The translations under genes and the position numbers were made by a program. Below the pieces are notes generated by a model. That model did no database searches. It was not told the origin of the DNA and saw only the letters and a program-made list of their open reading frames with translations. 24,905 bases of DNA from a virus. Shown here piece after piece: positions 2,673 to 10,405 of the stretch (positions within the stretch are counted from its first letter, which is position 1; each line of letters begins with the position of its first letter). The stretch spans positions 1-24,905 of IMG/VR virus record IMGVR_UViG_3300041409_000594, one strand, 5' to 3'.

Positions 2673-3212
2673 ATGCTGCGTGCAATTGCAATCGCGTTCT
2701 TCGTGATGATCGCCGCGGTCTCACAATGCAACGTCTCAGTCCTGTCGCCGCCGCCCGAGCGCCCGAAGCCTGGAGTCGTAAAACGGATCCTCGATTGGTT
2801 CAAATCGTCGCCGTCGGCGTCGTCGGGTGACGTGACGGTCAATTTGAGAGCGCCCGTGGCTCCGACGTCCGACGTCGAAACGAAGCCCGCGGCCGTCGAT
2901 GGGCTTGTCTATGATCCCTCCCGGCCCGTTCGATTCTTCTACGGTCCTAAGCCGGCTGACGTCCCTGGCCATGTCTGGCGACCGCAGGACTATCGCTTGA
3001 ACAGTTGGGTGCTCTACAAGCTGACGCCCAAGCCCTTCCAGGGCGCTGGCGACTGGTGGTATCGCGACACCGATCGCGGCCGCGAAGTCTACACGAGCTG
3101 GGGCTGGCAGCCAGGCTCGAGCCCGCCGGCCCAGCAGGCGACGCGGGGCATGAGCTCGAGCGGCTTCCAAGACGGCTATTGCGGTCGCCGGCCGCTGTTC
3201 GGAGGCTCGTGA
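2673..3212 (+). CDS. Secreted or membrane-anchored Trp/Pro-rich protein
   Basis: The product is 179 residues from the ATG at 2673. Residues 3-17 (RAIAIAFFVMIAAVS) form a signal sequence followed by QC; VSQC is only a poor lipobox because of the Gln before Cys, so lipoprotein processing is doubtful. The mature region is Pro-rich, then contains aromatic segments such as FFYGPKPADVPGHVWRPQD, AGDWWYRDTD and YTSWGWQPGS, suggesting a compact extracytoplasmic domain. No family is recognised. The stop overlaps the start of the CarF-like desaturase (TGATG), so the two are translated together. Confidence 0.65.
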   Translation: MLRAIAIAFFVMIAAVSQCNVSVLSPPPERPKPGVVKRILDWFKSSPSASSGDVTVNLRAPVAPTSDVETKPAAVDGLVYDPSRPVRFFYGPKPADVPGHVWRPQDYRLNSWVLYKLTPKPFQGAGDWWYRDTDRGREVYTSWGWQPGSSPPAQQATRGMSSSGFQDGYCGRRPLFGGS

Positions 3213-3664
3213 TGGCCACCATTGGCACCGCGGTGCTATTCGCTTACATCGCCGCTGATGCGCTGTCAGCCCTCTACCATCTTTTCACCGATCGCGGCTG
3301 GAACATCTCCAGTCAGCGATCGTTTTTCGAGAACCACCACCGTCGACCGTGGACCATGACCTTCGATCTGCAGCCGCTCGCTGTGGGTCTGCCGATCGCA
3401 ACGTTTGGTTATCTCTTCGAATCTTGGTTCTTGTTGTTGCTCGGCATGTTCCTTTCGGTCGCGCAGTTGCCGCACTACTGGGCCCACTTTCCCGCCCCAT
3501 GGCCAGTCCGAGTATTGCAGCTCGCCCGCATCATCCTTCCACCCGCAAAGCACGCTTCCCATCACCAGGGCGATTTTGATCGAGACTTTTGTGTGCTTTC
3601 GGGCTGGAACAACTTCTGGATCAACTGGTTCGCGTCGTTCGTGCCCCAAAGGAAGCTTGCATGA
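3212..3664 (+). CDS. CarF/TMEM189-like lipid (plasmanylethanolamine) desaturase
   Basis: The product is a 150-residue integral membrane protein. It has exactly eight histidines, all in the motif positions of the TMEM189/CarF (PEDS1, Pfam Lipid_desat) family: His23 in DALSALYHLFTDRGW, His42-43 in ENHHRRP, His88 and His92 in LPHYWAH, and His114, His117-118 in ILPPAKHASHH. The tail FCVLSGWNN matches the family's FC..tGW.N. In characterised members these histidines bind a di-iron centre that desaturates the ether-linked chain of plasmanylethanolamine to make the vinyl ether of plasmalogens. Hydrophobic segments lie at residues 5-22 and 55-86. The protein is shorter than CarF or human TMEM189, mainly at the N-terminus. 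A strong GGAGG precedes the ATG. The substrate is unproven; another lipid desaturation is possible. Confidence 0.82.
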   Translation: MATIGTAVLFAYIAADALSALYHLFTDRGWNISSQRSFFENHHRRPWTMTFDLQPLAVGLPIATFGYLFESWFLLLLGMFLSVAQLPHYWAHFPAPWPVRVLQLARIILPPAKHASHHQGDFDRDFCVLSGWNNFWINWFASFVPQRKLA

Positions 3665-3688
3665 CGGACAGTTGTTCGGAGGCCCGTG

Positions 3689-4222
3689 ATGGCTGACATT
3701 CGTGCCGTCTTCTTTGACTGGAATGGCACCTGCTCGGACTTGCGTGCGATGACGCCGCAAATGCGACAGCGCTTCGATCTGCGCGGCAACTATGTCGCCA
3801 TGCACCGCCGGCTCGATTGGGAGGTCGTGAGTGCGTTGGTCGAGGCTAGGCCGTGGTTGGACGTTGACTGTCTGAAGCGATGGGAAACGACAACCGTCTG
3901 TCTGACGAACTGCTCGCGACGAATGATCGAGCGGATGGGCATCGACGAGTTGTTCACGGTCATCCACAGCAGCGACGATTCGCTCTGTTACAAGCCCGAC
4001 CGCCGGATGTATTTGGACGCCGCGTATCGCCTCGGTCTGTCGCCTGTCGAATGCCTGATGGTCGCGGCACACAACTTCGACCTGAACGCTGCGGCCTCGC
4101 TTGGAATGCACACCGCTTTCGTTCAACGGCCCGGCGAGGATGAGAAGGCAGACGGGCATGCGACGATCGAGACCTTCAAAGAACTGCCTGCGTTCGCCGG
4201 CTTCGAGGTCCGTGATGACTGA
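3689..4222 (+). CDS. HAD-superfamily hydrolase (haloacid dehalogenase-like)
   Basis: The product is 177 residues with the four HAD motifs: motif I FFDWNGTCSD (nucleophile Asp10, Thr14; the usual second Asp is Asn12), motif II CLTNCS, motif III Lys in CYKPDRRMY, and motif IV in MVAAHNFDLNAAASLGMHT followed by AFVQRPGE. The VAAH..DL.AA..lG..TAFV.RP.E pattern is typical of type II haloacid dehalogenase-like proteins, whose nucleophile Asp attacks the substrate; many relatives act on phosphoesters. Asn in place of the second motif I Asp removes the usual phosphatase acid/base, though DWNGT is also common in annotated phosphatases. The CGGAGG ribosome-binding site lies 24 bases after the desaturase gene and repeats its initiation region nearly base for base. 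The cytoplasmic substrate is unknown. Confidence 0.8.
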   Translation: MADIRAVFFDWNGTCSDLRAMTPQMRQRFDLRGNYVAMHRRLDWEVVSALVEARPWLDVDCLKRWETTTVCLTNCSRRMIERMGIDELFTVIHSSDDSLCYKPDRRMYLDAAYRLGLSPVECLMVAAHNFDLNAAASLGMHTAFVQRPGEDEKADGHATIETFKELPAFAGFEVRDD

Positions 4223-4469
4223 GACACCAGACACCAAGTCCGCGGGCTCGCAACGCTTTGCCCTGTGCCAGGCGGACCTGAAGAAGGTCGGCAAGGGTGC
4301 GATCGCCACGACGTCGACGGCGATGCTCACCTACGCCGCCAACGCCATGACGGCCGAGGGGGCTGGCTGCTGGACGATCGCGTTCGCTGTCGGGGTGATG
4401 GCGTTCGGTCACGTCTTAGCCTTGTTCTGCAGCGACACCAACGCAACCCAGCAACCGCCGAGCGTGTGA
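4215..4469 (+). CDS. Small holin-like membrane protein
   Basis: The product is 84 residues from the ATG at 4215, overlapping the HAD gene end by eight bases. A charged N-terminus (residues 1-26) is followed by a moderately hydrophobic segment at about 28-47 and a strong one at 52-72 (CWTIAFAVGVMAFGHVLAL), then a short polar tail. Two spans in a protein of this size next to another small membrane gene and a peptidase fit a holin, which would permeabilise the inner membrane at lysis. This rests on topology and position, not on a sequence motif. Confidence 0.6.
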   Translation: MTETPDTKSAGSQRFALCQADLKKVGKGAIATTSTAMLTYAANAMTAEGAGCWTIAFAVGVMAFGHVLALFCSDTNATQQPPSV

Positions 4470-4678
4470 TGGCCGAGTTGATTAATAATATCGCGGACCT
4501 GTTCACGATCATCGGCGGCGTGGGTGGCTTGCTGCTGATCTTCATGCGACTCGGCGGCATGCGGACCGACCTTCGCTCGACGTTGTCGAAACTGCGCAGG
4601 ACCGATCGCCGTCACGACGAGTGGCTGCGAGATCACGAACTCCGCATCACTACGATCGAGCGACGAGACTCTACCTGA
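4469..4678 (+). CDS. Small membrane protein with coiled-coil tail, holin/XhlA-like
   Basis: The product is 69 residues; its ATG overlaps the preceding stop (TGATG at 4467-4471). Residues 8-28 (IADLFTIIGGVGGLLLIFMRL) form one transmembrane helix. The C-terminal 40 residues are highly charged and helical (LRSTLSKLRRTDRRHDEWL), likely a short coiled coil. This one-span plus charged-helix plan recalls haemolysin XhlA-like and class III holin accessory proteins, although XhlA usually has the helix first. It lies eight bases before the second papain-like peptidase, so a holin, accessory and peptidase lysis cassette is a reasonable inference. Confidence 0.6.
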   Translation: MAELINNIADLFTIIGGVGGLLLIFMRLGGMRTDLRSTLSKLRRTDRRHDEWLRDHELRITTIERRDST

Positions 4679-4685
4679 GGACGCT

Positions 4686-5486
4686 ATGAAACGCACCTAT
4701 GGCTGGCTTCGTCAGCCTCACGATGACCGCGACCTACGTTACGTCGTACCGACTCGGCTGACGGCCGTGTTGCCGACGTCGATCGACCTTGCCCCGCACA
4801 TGGGTCCGCAGCTCGATCAGCAGGACCTGGGGGCGTGCGGTCCAAATACGGCCGACGAGTGCATCGAGTTCGATCAGGCGGCCGAAGGTGAGCCGATCGT
4901 CAGCGCGTCGCGGCTGTTCATCTATTACGCCACTCGCATGTTGATGGGCACGGTTGGCGAGGACAGCGGCGTCGACAATCGAACGCTGCTGAAGGCGCTC
5001 AACAAATACGGCTTTTGCGCTGAATCCCTCTGGCCGTACGTAACATCGAAGTTCACCGTCAAACCCCCGAAAGCGTGCTTCACCGCGGCACTCAAGAATT
5101 GCATCCGCAATTACGCGGCAGTCGCCCAGACCCATTCGCAGATGTGTGGCACGCTGACCACCGGTCGACCATTCGTGTTCGGGTTCGATTGCTTTGCAGC
5201 CCTCGAGTCCGACTCCGTCGCGGCGACGGGCATCCTGCCGACGCCCCGCGCGGGCCAGACGCCGATCGGCGGTCATGACGTGACGATCTGCGGCTTCACG
5301 ACGATCGATCGCCCGGGCATCAAGAAGGGCAACAAGTGGCCGAAGAATACGTACCGAGCCCGAAATCACTGGGTGCTCGACGACGGAACGCCCCATGGTG
5401 ACGGTGGCTATCTCTACGTTCCGTTTGCGTACGCGGAGAACGCGAAGTACGCGAGCGATTTCTGGGTCGTGAACGCGATTCCGTAG
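4686..5486 (+). CDS. Papain-like (C1 family) cysteine peptidase 2
   Basis: The product is 266 residues. It opens with YGWLRQPHDDRDLRY, a start common in bacterial C1 peptidases. Gln45 lies six residues before Cys51 in LDQQDLGACGPN, His197 is in GGHDVTICGF, and the Asn is most likely Asn227 in ARNHWVLDDG, followed by HGDGGY. The usual NSWG..WGd.GY is therefore altered to NHWV with a longer connector. Several extra Cys (residues 59, 111, 131, 139, 154 and others) could form disulphides. No signal peptide is seen, so export would need a holin. AGGACGCT precedes the ATG. Its place directly after two small membrane genes makes it the best endolysin candidate in the window; a virion or host-directed protease is the alternative. 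Confidence 0.85.
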   Translation: MKRTYGWLRQPHDDRDLRYVVPTRLTAVLPTSIDLAPHMGPQLDQQDLGACGPNTADECIEFDQAAEGEPIVSASRLFIYYATRMLMGTVGEDSGVDNRTLLKALNKYGFCAESLWPYVTSKFTVKPPKACFTAALKNCIRNYAAVAQTHSQMCGTLTTGRPFVFGFDCFAALESDSVAATGILPTPRAGQTPIGGHDVTICGFTTIDRPGIKKGNKWPKNTYRARNHWVLDDGTPHGDGGYLYVPFAYAENAKYASDFWVVNAIP

Positions 5487-5496
5487 CTCAAAAGTC

Positions 5497-5530
5497 GGGC
5501 GGCCGCCAAGCGCGAACTCGGCGACCGCCC
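5497..5530 (+). terminator. GC-rich hairpin closing the accessory block
   Basis: Eleven bases after the peptidase stop, GGGCGGCCGCC (5497-5507) pairs with GGCGACCGCCC (5520-5530): ten base pairs with one mismatch around a 12-base loop. No T-run follows (TAAACACG), so it is not a classical intrinsic terminator. It may act as a Rho-dependent pause, an mRNA 3'-end stabiliser or a weak terminator. The only sizeable intergenic gap nearby lies here, which supports a transcription-unit boundary. Confidence 0.4.
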
Positions 5531-5589
5531 TAAACACGACGAGGTAACAGACCCCTCGCCACGTCTAGGCAACCCTAGGTCATGGCGAA

Positions 5590-6402
5590 ATGGACAAGCA
5601 CGAAACCCCGGCCCAAATCCGCGACCGGATACGAGGCCTTCGCCGCGTTCGGCCCTCCGAACTTCGGCGCAATCCGCAAGCCTGGAAGAAACACACCCCG
5701 CGACAACGCAAGGCGCTGAAGGACGTGATGACCGAGATCGGCTTCGCCGATGCCCTCCTGGCCCGCGAACTTGAAGACGGCTCGCTCGAGCTGATCGACG
5801 GCGAACTGCGCGCCGGCATCGCGGATGACCAGGTTGTGCCCGTCATCGTTCTGGATGTCGCCGCGCCCGCGGGCCCGCAGATGCTGCAGTTCGCGCTCGT
5901 GCTCTCGAAGCTGGGCATCTGGCGTCAGACGCTCGTCTGGGTCAAAGACGCATTCGTGCTCGGGCGGAGCGATTATCACTACCGCCACGAGGTTGTGTTC
6001 GCCGGTGCGATCACGGCCGACGACGTCGACGGCAAGTCGCACGAGCTGGTCCTCTATGGCTGGCGGCCCGGGGCGAAGCACACCGCGCCCGAAGACCGCA
6101 CCTGGTCGACCGTGCTCGAGTACGCCAGGCCCAAGGCCAATCGCCTGCATCCCACCATGAAGCCGGTCGACCTGTGGGGCGACCTCATGCGCAACGGCAG
6201 CATCGCCGGCGACATCGTGCTCGATTTGTTCGGCGGCGCCGGCGTCACGGCCATCGTGGCTGAGCAGCTCGGCCGACGTGCACGCCTGGTCGAACTCGAT
6301 CCGCGGTTCTGCGATGTGATCGTGCAGCGCTGGCAAACGCTCACGGGCCTGGAGGCCGTACGCGAATCGGACGGCGTCGCGTTCGACGAGGTGTCGGCAT
6401 GA
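5590..6402 (+). CDS. ParB-like domain fused to a truncated N4/N6 DNA methylase
   Basis: The product is 270 residues. Residues 18-92 are a ParB/sulfiredoxin-like domain (RPSELRRNP, LELIDGELRAGIA, VVPVIVLDV). From about residue 99 it reads like the second half of a phage ParB-methylase: GIWRQTLVWVKDAFVLGRSDYHYRHE, LYGWRPGAKH, HPTMKPVDLW (187-196), then the AdoMet-binding DLFGGAGVT (212-220) and the acidic ELDPRFCD (235-242). The segment normally between these halves, with the catalytic DPPY (motif IV), is absent, and about 18 extra residues separate two HE-x-V-x-x-G copies (residues 133-158). It could bind DNA or AdoMet but probably cannot methylate alone. It overlaps the small terminase start, suggesting a packaging or DNA-marking role. 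Confidence 0.75.
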   Translation: MDKHETPAQIRDRIRGLRRVRPSELRRNPQAWKKHTPRQRKALKDVMTEIGFADALLARELEDGSLELIDGELRAGIADDQVVPVIVLDVAAPAGPQMLQFALVLSKLGIWRQTLVWVKDAFVLGRSDYHYRHEVVFAGAITADDVDGKSHELVLYGWRPGAKHTAPEDRTWSTVLEYARPKANRLHPTMKPVDLWGDLMRNGSIAGDIVLDLFGGAGVTAIVAEQLGRRARLVELDPRFCDVIVQRWQTLTGLEAVRESDGVAFDEVSA

Positions 6403-6740
6403 AACCCACGCCTAAATGCCCAAGAAACCTCGATGCATGCGGCCGTAGGACCTGGCGAAGGCTTTGTTCGCAACTCGTCGAAGAAGGCACGGTCGACGAG
6501 ATCGACAAGCTGCAGCTGGTCATGGTCTGCCAGCTCTGGAGCAGGCTGATCAAGGCCGAAGCGGGCATCGCGCAGTTTGGATCGATCATCGCGACGCGAC
6601 AGTCGCCAATCCCGAAGCGCAGCCCTTATGTCGCGGTCGCGAATGAGTGCGTGCGGCAATTGAGTCCCCTGCTGGCAAGGCTGCGACCGAGCACGCGTTC
6701 ACCGCGCCGGCCGAGTCCGGCGAAAACAAACAGGAGTTGA
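6399..6740 (+). CDS. Phage terminase small subunit (P27 family-like)
   Basis: The product is 113 residues. It follows the plan of the P27/Phage_terminase_4 family: an N-terminal LDACGRRTWRRLCSQLVEEG, then TVDEIDKLQLVMVCQLWSRL and helix IKAEAGIAQFGSII, an NP-like region replaced by SPYVAVANECVRQLSPLLARL, and a C-terminal RPSTRSPRR that corresponds to the family's LGLTPssR ending. Small terminases bind the viral packaging site and hand the DNA to the large subunit. Its ATG overlaps the methylase stop (ATGA). The large subunit lies 1.2 kb downstream, separated by an unusual extra gene. Confidence 0.75.
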   Translation: MKPTPKCPRNLDACGRRTWRRLCSQLVEEGTVDEIDKLQLVMVCQLWSRLIKAEAGIAQFGSIIATRQSPIPKRSPYVAVANECVRQLSPLLARLRPSTRSPRRPSPAKTNRS

Positions 6741-7952: not shown

Positions 7953-10046
7953 TTGGTGATTGAAGGGGCAAGCGACGACGATCGGCGGCGCGACGCCGAT
8001 CGCAAGCGACAGAGCCGGCTCAAAGCCAAGCTCGTCGTCATTCCGAAATGCGCGAATCGCGCGCGCCGCAAGCGACTCGAGCGCGACGATATCGCTTGGC
8101 TCATGCACTACTTCGGTGCAGCCTCCGCGGTCCGGGATCCGTTCACGCGACCGTTCACCGAACAGCAACGCGAAATGATTACGGCCATCCGTAACGCCAT
8201 CATGACCGGCGGCGACCAGGCGATCGCCGCCACCCGCGGCGAAGGCAAGTCGACTCTGTTCGAACGCATGCTAATTAAGTACACGCTGACGGGCGTGCTC
8301 ACGTTCAGTGTGCTGTTTCAGGCGTCGGGCGGTCTGGCGGAGAACTCGCTCGACTCGATCAAGACGGCGTTCGAAGAGAACCCCCTGCTGCTGGAGGATT
8401 ATCCTGAAGTCTGCGTCCCGGTTGTCGCTCTCGATAACACGCCTCAGCGGGCACACACCCAGGTCGTGTCGGGGAATCGGCATGACAACGGCAAGCCCTT
8501 CAAGCCGGTCAGCAGCCGCTTCAAGTGGTGTGGCAAAGAGATCATCCTGCCGGACGTGCCAGGTTCGCCGTCGGCCGGAGCGATCATCGCCGCCCGCGGC
8601 CTCGACGGCGCCGTCCGCGGTCTGAAGAAAAAAGGCAAGCGCCCCCAGGTTGCCGGCATTGATGATCCCGACACCGAGGAGAGCGCGCGCAGCGAGGCCC
8701 AGGCGAAGAAGCTCGACGCTCGAATCGAGAAGGCCATCGGTGGGCTCGGCGGTCAGCAGCGTGGCATCGCACGAGTGATGCTCACAACGATTCAGAGCCG
8801 CACGTCCGTTTCGTATCGCTTCACCGACCCCACGCAGAAACCCAGCTGGCGCGGGAAACGGTTTCGCTTTCTCGTTCATCCACCCGAGCGGACGGACCTT
8901 TGGGAGGAGTATGTCGCGCTCCGCCGCGCGGACTGGATCAATGATCTCGACGGCAAGTCGACAACTCACGCGCACGACTTCTACGTGCAGAACCGCGAAG
9001 CGATGGACGCAGGGGCGGTCGTTGCGAATGCCTACCGGATGCTCGAAGGCGAATTGTCCCCGCTGCAGCACTATTACAACGAAGTCGCGCGGAAAGGGCC
9101 CGAGGCGGTTGCCACCGAGTACGACAACGACCCGCCCGTGGAAGCCGGGCCGATCGAGTCGGGCATCACCCCCCATCGCATTCAACGCCAGGTCAGCGGC
9201 TACGACCGTCTGATCGTTCCGCCAGGTTGCACGGTGCTGACTCAGGGCATCGACGTCCGCAAGACCGCGCTGCACTGGGTCGTCCGCGCCTGGCAGCCCG
9301 GCGCCACTGGATTCACGATCGACAAAGGTGTGCACGAAGTTCGCGGTACTAAGTACGGCAGCGACGAGGGCGTCGAGACCGCGATCTACAACGCGATCCT
9401 CGAGCGGATCGAAGCGTCGAAGCAAACGGATTACCTCACTGCGGGCGGCGAGGTCCTGTCGATCAATCGCGCGCTCGTCGACGCGGGCTGGAAGACAGAC
9501 GCGGTTTATGCCGCCTGCATCGCCGCTGGCCTCGGTGTCATGCCGGTCATGGGGTTCGGCAAGTCGGCTGGCTGCGTGGAAGCGAGCTTCAGTGACGTGC
9601 AACGACGCACGAAGGATCGCAAGCCAGGCGACGGCTGGTTCCTTTCGCGAAAAGGCAACTTGTGGCTCGTCTGCGCGGACGCCGATCGCTGGAAAGCTTG
9701 GGAGCACGAGCGCTGGATGACGTCGCCCGGCAAGCCGGGCTGCATGCAAATCTACGGCGTCGGCAGCGGCATCGACCGCATGAGCGACGACGAGAAGTCG
9801 CACCACGCCTACGCGCGGCATATCTGCAACGAGATCGAGGTTGAAGAACCGCACAACGGTGCGATGCGGCGACGGTTCAAGGCCAAGAGCGACAACACTC
9901 ACTGGCTCGATGCGAGCTACTACTGCGATGTCGCCGCCAACATGGAGGGCATCCGCCTGCAGGCCTCGTCCGCGACGGCCGCCGCCGACGCTAAGCCGCC
10001 AGAAGCGACGAGTCAGGGATGGTTCGCCCAGCAGAAAAAGAGATGA
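7953..10046 (+). CDS. Phage terminase large subunit (lambda gpA type)
   Basis: The product is 697 residues. It is the packaging motor: an ATPase that pumps DNA into the prohead and a nuclease that cuts concatemers. Walker A is ATRGEGKST (93-101), Walker B the acidic pair in VAGIDDPDTEE (237-238). The C-terminal nuclease region shows LTQGIDVRKTALHWVVRAW and later NRALVDAGWKTDAVYAAC, matching the metal-binding Asp positions of GpA nucleases. Length matches the 600-700 of the family. The start is uncertain: TTG at 7953 or GTG at 7956, both behind AGGACAAGAG. A very basic N-terminus (residues 8-45) could bind the small subunit. The stop overlaps the next gene (ATGA). Confidence 0.92.
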   Translation: MVIEGASDDDRRRDADRKRQSRLKAKLVVIPKCANRARRKRLERDDIAWLMHYFGAASAVRDPFTRPFTEQQREMITAIRNAIMTGGDQAIAATRGEGKSTLFERMLIKYTLTGVLTFSVLFQASGGLAENSLDSIKTAFEENPLLLEDYPEVCVPVVALDNTPQRAHTQVVSGNRHDNGKPFKPVSSRFKWCGKEIILPDVPGSPSAGAIIAARGLDGAVRGLKKKGKRPQVAGIDDPDTEESARSEAQAKKLDARIEKAIGGLGGQQRGIARVMLTTIQSRTSVSYRFTDPTQKPSWRGKRFRFLVHPPERTDLWEEYVALRRADWINDLDGKSTTHAHDFYVQNREAMDAGAVVANAYRMLEGELSPLQHYYNEVARKGPEAVATEYDNDPPVEAGPIESGITPHRIQRQVSGYDRLIVPPGCTVLTQGIDVRKTALHWVVRAWQPGATGFTIDKGVHEVRGTKYGSDEGVETAIYNAILERIEASKQTDYLTAGGEVLSINRALVDAGWKTDAVYAACIAAGLGVMPVMGFGKSAGCVEASFSDVQRRTKDRKPGDGWFLSRKGNLWLVCADADRWKAWEHERWMTSPGKPGCMQIYGVGSGIDRMSDDEKSHHAYARHICNEIEVEEPHNGAMRRRFKAKSDNTHWLDASYYCDVAANMEGIRLQASSATAAADAKPPEATSQGWFAQQKKR

Positions 10047-10405
10047 GCATGCGTTCGATCGACTGCACACGTTGCGGCTGCAATGACACAACCGTGATCA
10101 CCGAACCGAGCGAGGTTCAGGCGACGCGCGGCGGTGTGGTTCGCAGCGACGTGCCGGCGTGGGAGCAACCTGGCCGCGCGAAGTGCAATCACTGCGGCTT
10201 GGAGTTTTCGTACAGGGACGAGCCGGAGCGTACGCCGCGTGCTTCCGGTTACGAGATCCATTGTCCCGAGTGCAACTCGATCGATACGTACGTCTCAAGC
10301 AGTCCTCTGCCCAAAGGCGGCGTCAAAAAGAGATTCATGAAATGCCGCTCATGCCAGCACAGTTTTAAGACCAACGACCCCGTCGCAAATGGTTCACCCG
10401 CTTAA
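10043..10405 (+). CDS. Double zinc-ribbon protein
   Basis: I chose the ATG at 10043 because it overlaps the terminase stop (ATGA); an earlier in-frame start at 10019 lies inside the terminase. The 120-residue product has four CxxC knuckles: CTRC (8-11), CNHC (44-47), then CPEC and CRSC in the C-terminal half, giving two zinc ribbons. The second (CPECNSIDT ... KRFMKCRSCQHSFKT) resembles ribbons of transcription regulators such as NrdR and phage late activators, with an aromatic after the last knuckle. It probably binds nucleic acid. Coupling to terminase suggests a role in packaging or late transcription, which is inference. Confidence 0.75.
   Translation: MSMRSIDCTRCGCNDTTVITEPSEVQATRGGVVRSDVPAWEQPGRAKCNHCGLEFSYRDEPERTPRASGYEIHCPECNSIDTYVSSSPLPKGGVKKRFMKCRSCQHSFKTNDPVANGSPA

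Follow-up and report, generated by a model that had tools for sequence, protein, structure and literature searches.

ParB-like proteins and DNA-modifying enzymes are frequent neighbours of phage terminase genes. The phage ParB-Tls locus is said to have been described originally by Iyer et al. in 2013. Enzymes of the N6/N4 methylase class require the DPPY motif. PMC6536676 places all 36 of its ParB-containing phage methylases upstream of terminase genes and, citing Iyer 2013, gives the proposal that ParB directs the modification machinery during packaging. In PMC5512222, the ParB domain of a ParB–methylase from Bacillus cereus is said to nick DNA non-specifically. A natural ParB–methylase keeping much of its structure and not its catalytic centre would separate the ParB and methylation jobs. 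Should such a protein remain important for packaging, ParB has an independent role in that process; should it be a relic, its phage can manage without methylation.

The locus described here lies in a stretch of 24,905 nucleotides (the window), which is an uncultivated virus record (IMGVR_UViG_3300041409_000594) and an incomplete fragment. Open reading frame P0001 (5590..6402, + strand) encodes 270 aa from ATG to TGA, as an earlier note made from the DNA alone had it, and joins a ParB half to the second half of a DNA methylase. The product of this chimera is most likely a catalytically dead, still folded ParB–pseudo-methylase.

Gene layout and terminase setting

The ParB-type domain occupies residues 9-90 (5614..5859, +; edges approximate) and ends at junction V90/A91 (5857..5862, +), where the ParB end 'VIVLDV' passes into methylase 'VAAPAG'. 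The rest (5860..6396, +) is left over from a beta-class N6/N4 DNA methylase and corresponds to its C-terminal part. It includes an in-frame insert of 18 residues at about 134-151 (5989..6042, +), the retained HPTMKP string at residues 187-192 (6148..6165, +), which we take to be motif X, and the AdoMet-loop motif I at residues 212-223 (6223..6258, +; DLFGGAGVTAIV). The frame shows none of the disruption expected of a pseudogene, with 270 codons free of stops and frameshifts, and codon-position GC is coding-like in every segment, the insert too. The fusion of the two halves, already proposed in the earlier note, is borne out by Pfam and fold matches for the methylase and by homologues and fold for ParB.

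The small terminase subunit (Terminase_4; 6399..6740, +) has its ATG overlapping the stop codon of the chimera and the large subunit follows at 7953..10046 (+), which gives the arrangement of a ParB–terminase locus. An intact ParB–methylase stands upstream of the large terminase in all four of its relatives with enough upstream DNA (L082, L085, L088, L089); the stretches fetched for L083, L084, L086 and L087 gave no methylase match, and these four were left out of the counts below. Directly 3' of the large terminase, the window encodes a small protein with zinc-ribbon-like segments (10019-10402, +), whose matches are under the Pfam cut-offs. Elsewhere, a lipid-desaturase-domain protein (3212-3661, +; Pfam Lipid_desat, 9.8e-16), presumably of the plasmalogen-desaturase type, adjoins a HAD-type hydrolase (3686-4219). 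The window proteins scanned (a subset of the ORFs of this fragment) yielded no further recognisable DNA-modification enzyme, promoter and terminator scans gave nothing exceeding chance, and a tRNA scan found none.

The methylase half

Pfam N6_N4_Mtase matches residues 114-245 at 8.3e-15, over its cut-off, and covers model positions 77-220 of 221, whereas the match begins at model position 2-3 in the intact relatives L009 and L085. The fold of this half is close to those of CcrM (6pbd, Z 11.8) and M.BceJIV (9c3s, Z 11.5). The reported loss of DPPY was confirmed by a search for [DNSE]PP[YFW] over six frames of the whole window: the only such string is SPPW, in an unrelated minus-strand frame, and no catalytic (D/N/S)PP(Y/F/W) occurs in the chimera ORF or in any methylase-like frame of the window. 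Alignment to a full-length ParB-methylase, which had been suggested for mapping the deletion, was run with L009 (403 aa of the fetched frame). It leaves residues 82-245 of L009 (164 aa) without a counterpart in the chimera, so that the lesion is larger than the first guess of about 100-150 codons. The L009 model shows linker helices and two short strands in this stretch, as well as the strand bearing DPPY (190-195) and the one after it (238-246); with the latter two missing, the catalytic domain of the chimera is incomplete. Because the methylase class requires DPPY and two strands of the intact model are gone, it is close to certain that the chimera product would be unable to methylate. The predicted model of the chimera has a mean pLDDT of 80.6 and a pTM of 0.57, with low confidence at the junction (residues 90-93) and around the insert (128-132 and 134-146); the L009 control has 87.8 and 0.70. 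Input alignments for the models held 58 rows.

The DPPY segment is lost at V90/A91, slightly to the left of the residues 92-99 given earlier. The tract at about 5859-5879 is GC-rich as described; it is merely an imperfect palindrome and not repeat-like. On the ParB side, relatives read LD[VIL]-[DNTS]-[EDAQ]-x-E (n=94) where the chimera has A-A-P-A after aspartate-V/I/L. On the methylase side, the V90 position is I, V or A in 63/64 matches, and the overlap of residues compatible with both sides is about one codon long. At this point the nearest methylase sequences read YVAAPHGPMG (L001, L090) and YIAAPHGRM (L103). A DNA pattern specific for the junction had 0 matches in viral contigs, in a collection that may omit records very near the window.

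The 18 extra residues, noticed earlier between two HE-x-V-x-x-G copies, appear as a pairwise gap of 18 in 145 of 164 relatives. The gap is 16 in 13 relatives and 4-7 in three, and none was seen in three others, of which two have alignments starting at or near the insert site and the third, L103, carries an insert of its own. Tandem duplication as the source was rejected at the DNA level, the two HE copies not being linked by a direct repeat. Translated searches for the source gave nothing convincing (best non-self window match, E 0.14).

Motif I reads GSG[ST]TLIA in relatives and GAGVTAIV in the chimera. F214, G216 and G218 of the F-x-G-x-G loop are kept, and S217A, S/T219V, L221A and A223V are changes absent in 181 relatives. 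Across 126 methylase columns compared with these relatives, A217, V219, A221 and V223 are the only novel residues. All four fall within motif I, which takes up 12 of these columns (hypergeometric 5e-5); the test is post hoc because the odd residues had been noticed beforehand. The result is the same with 58 non-redundant relatives, which have no private motif-I residue in 49 cases, one in eight and two in one; outside motif I, the methylase half has no residue absent from relatives. In a leave-one-out comparison of 37 rows the chimera has 5 private residues of 127 and ranks 30 of 37, so that the methylase half overall is not relaxed; general relaxation of this half was rejected on that rank and on the confinement of the novel residues to motif I. 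These private-residue counts dropped rows with too few aligned residues or above 75% or 85% identity. The earlier description of DLFGGAGVT as AdoMet-binding is doubtful, because the motif serine is Ser in 181/181 relatives and Ala in the chimera, and normal AdoMet binding is probably absent. AdoMet could still bind, and an active subfamily beyond the present sampling could use GAGVT. The pattern of private residues, though post hoc, argues against an assembly error as well as against general decay.

ParB half and relatives

The ParB half is 43-59% identical to 13 homologous ParB domains, and its model has the ParB/sulfiredoxin fold (Z 11.2, rmsd 1.6 over 75 residues, against 7bnr). Solved ParB proteins match by sequence only marginally (E 0.004-0.006), Pfam missed the ParB domain in intact L009 and L085 as well, and the ParB half used alone as a query gave no match at 1e-5 in a phage collection. 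The chimera has lost 8/37 conserved positions; the 42 other rows, after removal of those with too few aligned residues or above 75% or 85% identity, have lost 1.4 on average (SD 2.1, maximum 10). Six of the eight are at least 98% conserved, a number exceeding every other row listed. The changes at conserved sites include N31A, R33K, P36T, L47M and H72E, and the subfamily motifs NWRxHP and DGHLR are replaced by AWKKHT and DGELR. R33, which is K in the chimera, corresponds in the alignment to the arginine of the Spo0J/Noc QPR stretch. Residue 72 is H in 95/95 relatives and E in the chimera; it aligns with the E of the GER stretch in Spo0J/Noc. These losses would fit either decay or a changed ligand.

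Searches for relatives kept the best 80 of 503 and the best 80 of 204 matches, and the window itself (L081) was left out of every count. DPPx is in frame in 155/164 loci with the C-terminal methylase half. Of the nine exceptions, contig ends truncate five (L004, L042, L049, L109, L111); L080 and L115 have DPPY out of frame, and L117 and L118 are no more than short remnants. A further set comprised 96 loci of the ParB type (best 80 of 518 profile matches and earlier loci). Within it, 49 have DPPx, two of these being truncated where their contigs end, and in the other 47 both DPPx and motif I are lacking. Whether relatives share the lesion had been posed as a check: within that same set, 0/96 loci have motif I and lack DPPx, and a second phage with this lesion was not found among the surveyed relatives. 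Among the 47 is L237, a ParB–methylase fusion whose frame breaks off at a run of seven G (L237:3050-3075) immediately ahead of DPPY, which resumes in another frame; a sequencing error might account for this frameshift, or phase variation.

In a tree of the first 90 of 163 distinct rows, the closest neighbour of the chimera is intact L103 (support 87/94, long branches), which has a small-terminase-like frame and a large terminase downstream (labels read from translations). L103 and the four terminase relatives keep DPPY. The earlier note had named intact DPPY in relatives as a refuter; the result shows an in-frame loss specific to the chimera's phage lineage rather than a false observation. Searches of viral contigs with the small terminase, the portal and the upstream peptidase-like gene gave no relatives.

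In none of the loci with the best-scoring methylase halves (L001, L003, L005, L090) is that half joined to a ParB of the chimera's type. In these viral and Planctomycetota contigs, two methylase genes in tandem follow the end of another methylase-like frame (about 4300-6150). A different methylase subfamily stands behind the same ParB type in L082, L088 and L089, and the methylase module has therefore been exchanged.

About half of the ParB-type loci (L173-L252; best 80 of 518 and earlier loci) encode methylase-free ParB proteins with varied C-terminal tails, often near GNAT and ABC genes; the tails are zinc ribbons or a recurring 'FQVVVEC...YERL..EG..CRVLTL'. In 46 fused relatives the next large ORF is for the most part a terminase: TerL_ATPase in 21, GpA_nuclease in 17 and Terminase_6N in five (families overlap). 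In 46 methylase-free loci, L237 counted in, it is frequently of a modification type: GNAT in 16, ABC in 16, C5 methylase in five, Tet/JBP in two, ADDT in two and Mom in one.

Explanations and comparison with known systems

We favour, at roughly 0.6, a ParB–DNA methylase of the phage ParB–terminase locus, shortened in frame by about 160 codons, lengthened by 18 and still present as a folded pseudo-methylase attached to ParB. The deletion would have taken the linker, the strand with DPPY and the one after it, with the 18 codons gained elsewhere in the gene. In the methylase half the AdoMet loop alone has drifted, the rest having no more unique substitutions than intact enzymes, and several invariant residues are gone from the ParB half. 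ParB would contact DNA, possibly under nucleotide control, and may still touch DNA or the terminase. The methylase remnant would still present its recognition region, no methyl transfer following, and the open frame would also keep ribosomes moving into the overlapping small-terminase start. With the catalytic centre lost and the frame intact beside packaging genes, the gene is probably either maintained for a DNA-binding protein that no longer marks DNA or an early relic. A DNA-binding or packaging role, as the earlier note proposed, is plausible: methylase-free ParB in about half of the 96 loci (best 80 of 518 and earlier loci) and the constraint on the rest of the methylase count for a packaging role, the 8/37 ParB losses against it. 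More tentatively, and with doubt prevailing, the remnant, once excision had ended catalysis and the AdoMet loop had drifted, could be kept to read sequence and, together with ParB, to mark phage DNA or license it for the terminase with no chemical modification; the retained half likely includes the target-recognition region.

That the gene is instead a recent pseudogene, its methylase killed by the deletion, its remainder unselected and its frame open by chance or for the terminase start, is rather unlikely. Broken methylase genes do occur among relatives (L080 and L115, in another frame; the remnants L117 and L118; L237, with its frameshift before DPPY), and the ParB half has lost 8/37 conserved positions. 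The open frame counts for little here, because two changes that are both multiples of three would arise in about 1 in 9 unconstrained cases and the overlap with the terminase start favours openness anyway. Still, no stop or frameshift interrupts the 270 codons, codon-position GC is coding-like even in the insert, and the methylase half has nothing novel beyond motif I. The evidence leans towards a retained pseudo-enzyme over a young relic because the remaining methylase half shows no excess change; the relic reading stays alive because the ParB half is altered and a second example is lacking.

The other readings are far less probable. Mis-assembly of an intact phage gene, which the earlier note named as a refuter, would suit an uncultivated metagenomic contig whose junction pattern had no match in the viral contigs searched. 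It is judged unlikely because the junction has almost no shared sequence and the AdoMet loop has drifted: a repeat collapse needs a shared word longer than about one codon, and mis-joining makes neither a second in-frame insert nor four novel loop residues. Even less weight goes to another origin of the same product, by joining of a ParB gene to a separate neighbouring methylase or by illegitimate recombination as one methylase replaced another. The unfused top-scoring methylase halves and the module exchange in L082, L088 and L089 would fit it, but the tree sets the chimera beside a fusion, L103, with terminase downstream (87/94, long branches). Least credible is a split methylase complemented in trans by a DPPY half encoded elsewhere. 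Such a half could fall outside the window, because the record is an incomplete fragment, but the window has no DPPY-bearing methylase ORF, no surveyed relative is split likewise, and a split enzyme that was active would not be expected to carry the changed AdoMet loop.

Among the literature titles found, none concerned a phage ParB–methylase that had lost its catalytic activity. The pseudo-methylase proposed here resembles the 'ParB-Tls' loci of Paracoccus prophages in having a ParB-methylase fusion directly upstream of terminase genes, and differs in lacking the DPPY segment, the prophage fusions being described as methylases (PMC6536676). Intact L009, L085 and L103 have the same domain order, with terminase genes downstream of L085 and L103, but possess the DPPY segment and a GSG[ST]T motif I and lack the chimera's 18-residue insert. 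Methylase-free ParB proteins (46 loci and frameshifted L237; best 80 of 518 and earlier loci) have the same ParB type and likewise no methylase catalytic centre. Unlike the chimera, they keep the stretch after the ParB domain and have no methylase remnant, and they often adjoin GNAT, ABC, C5-methylase, ADDT or Mom genes of phage base-modification loci. CcrM and M.BceJIV (6pbd, 9c3s) have the fold of the retained half in common with the chimera, and methylases of their class have DPPY and a full central sheet. The ParB–terminase locus is known; new is that the four novel residues of the retained methylase half all lie in the AdoMet loop.
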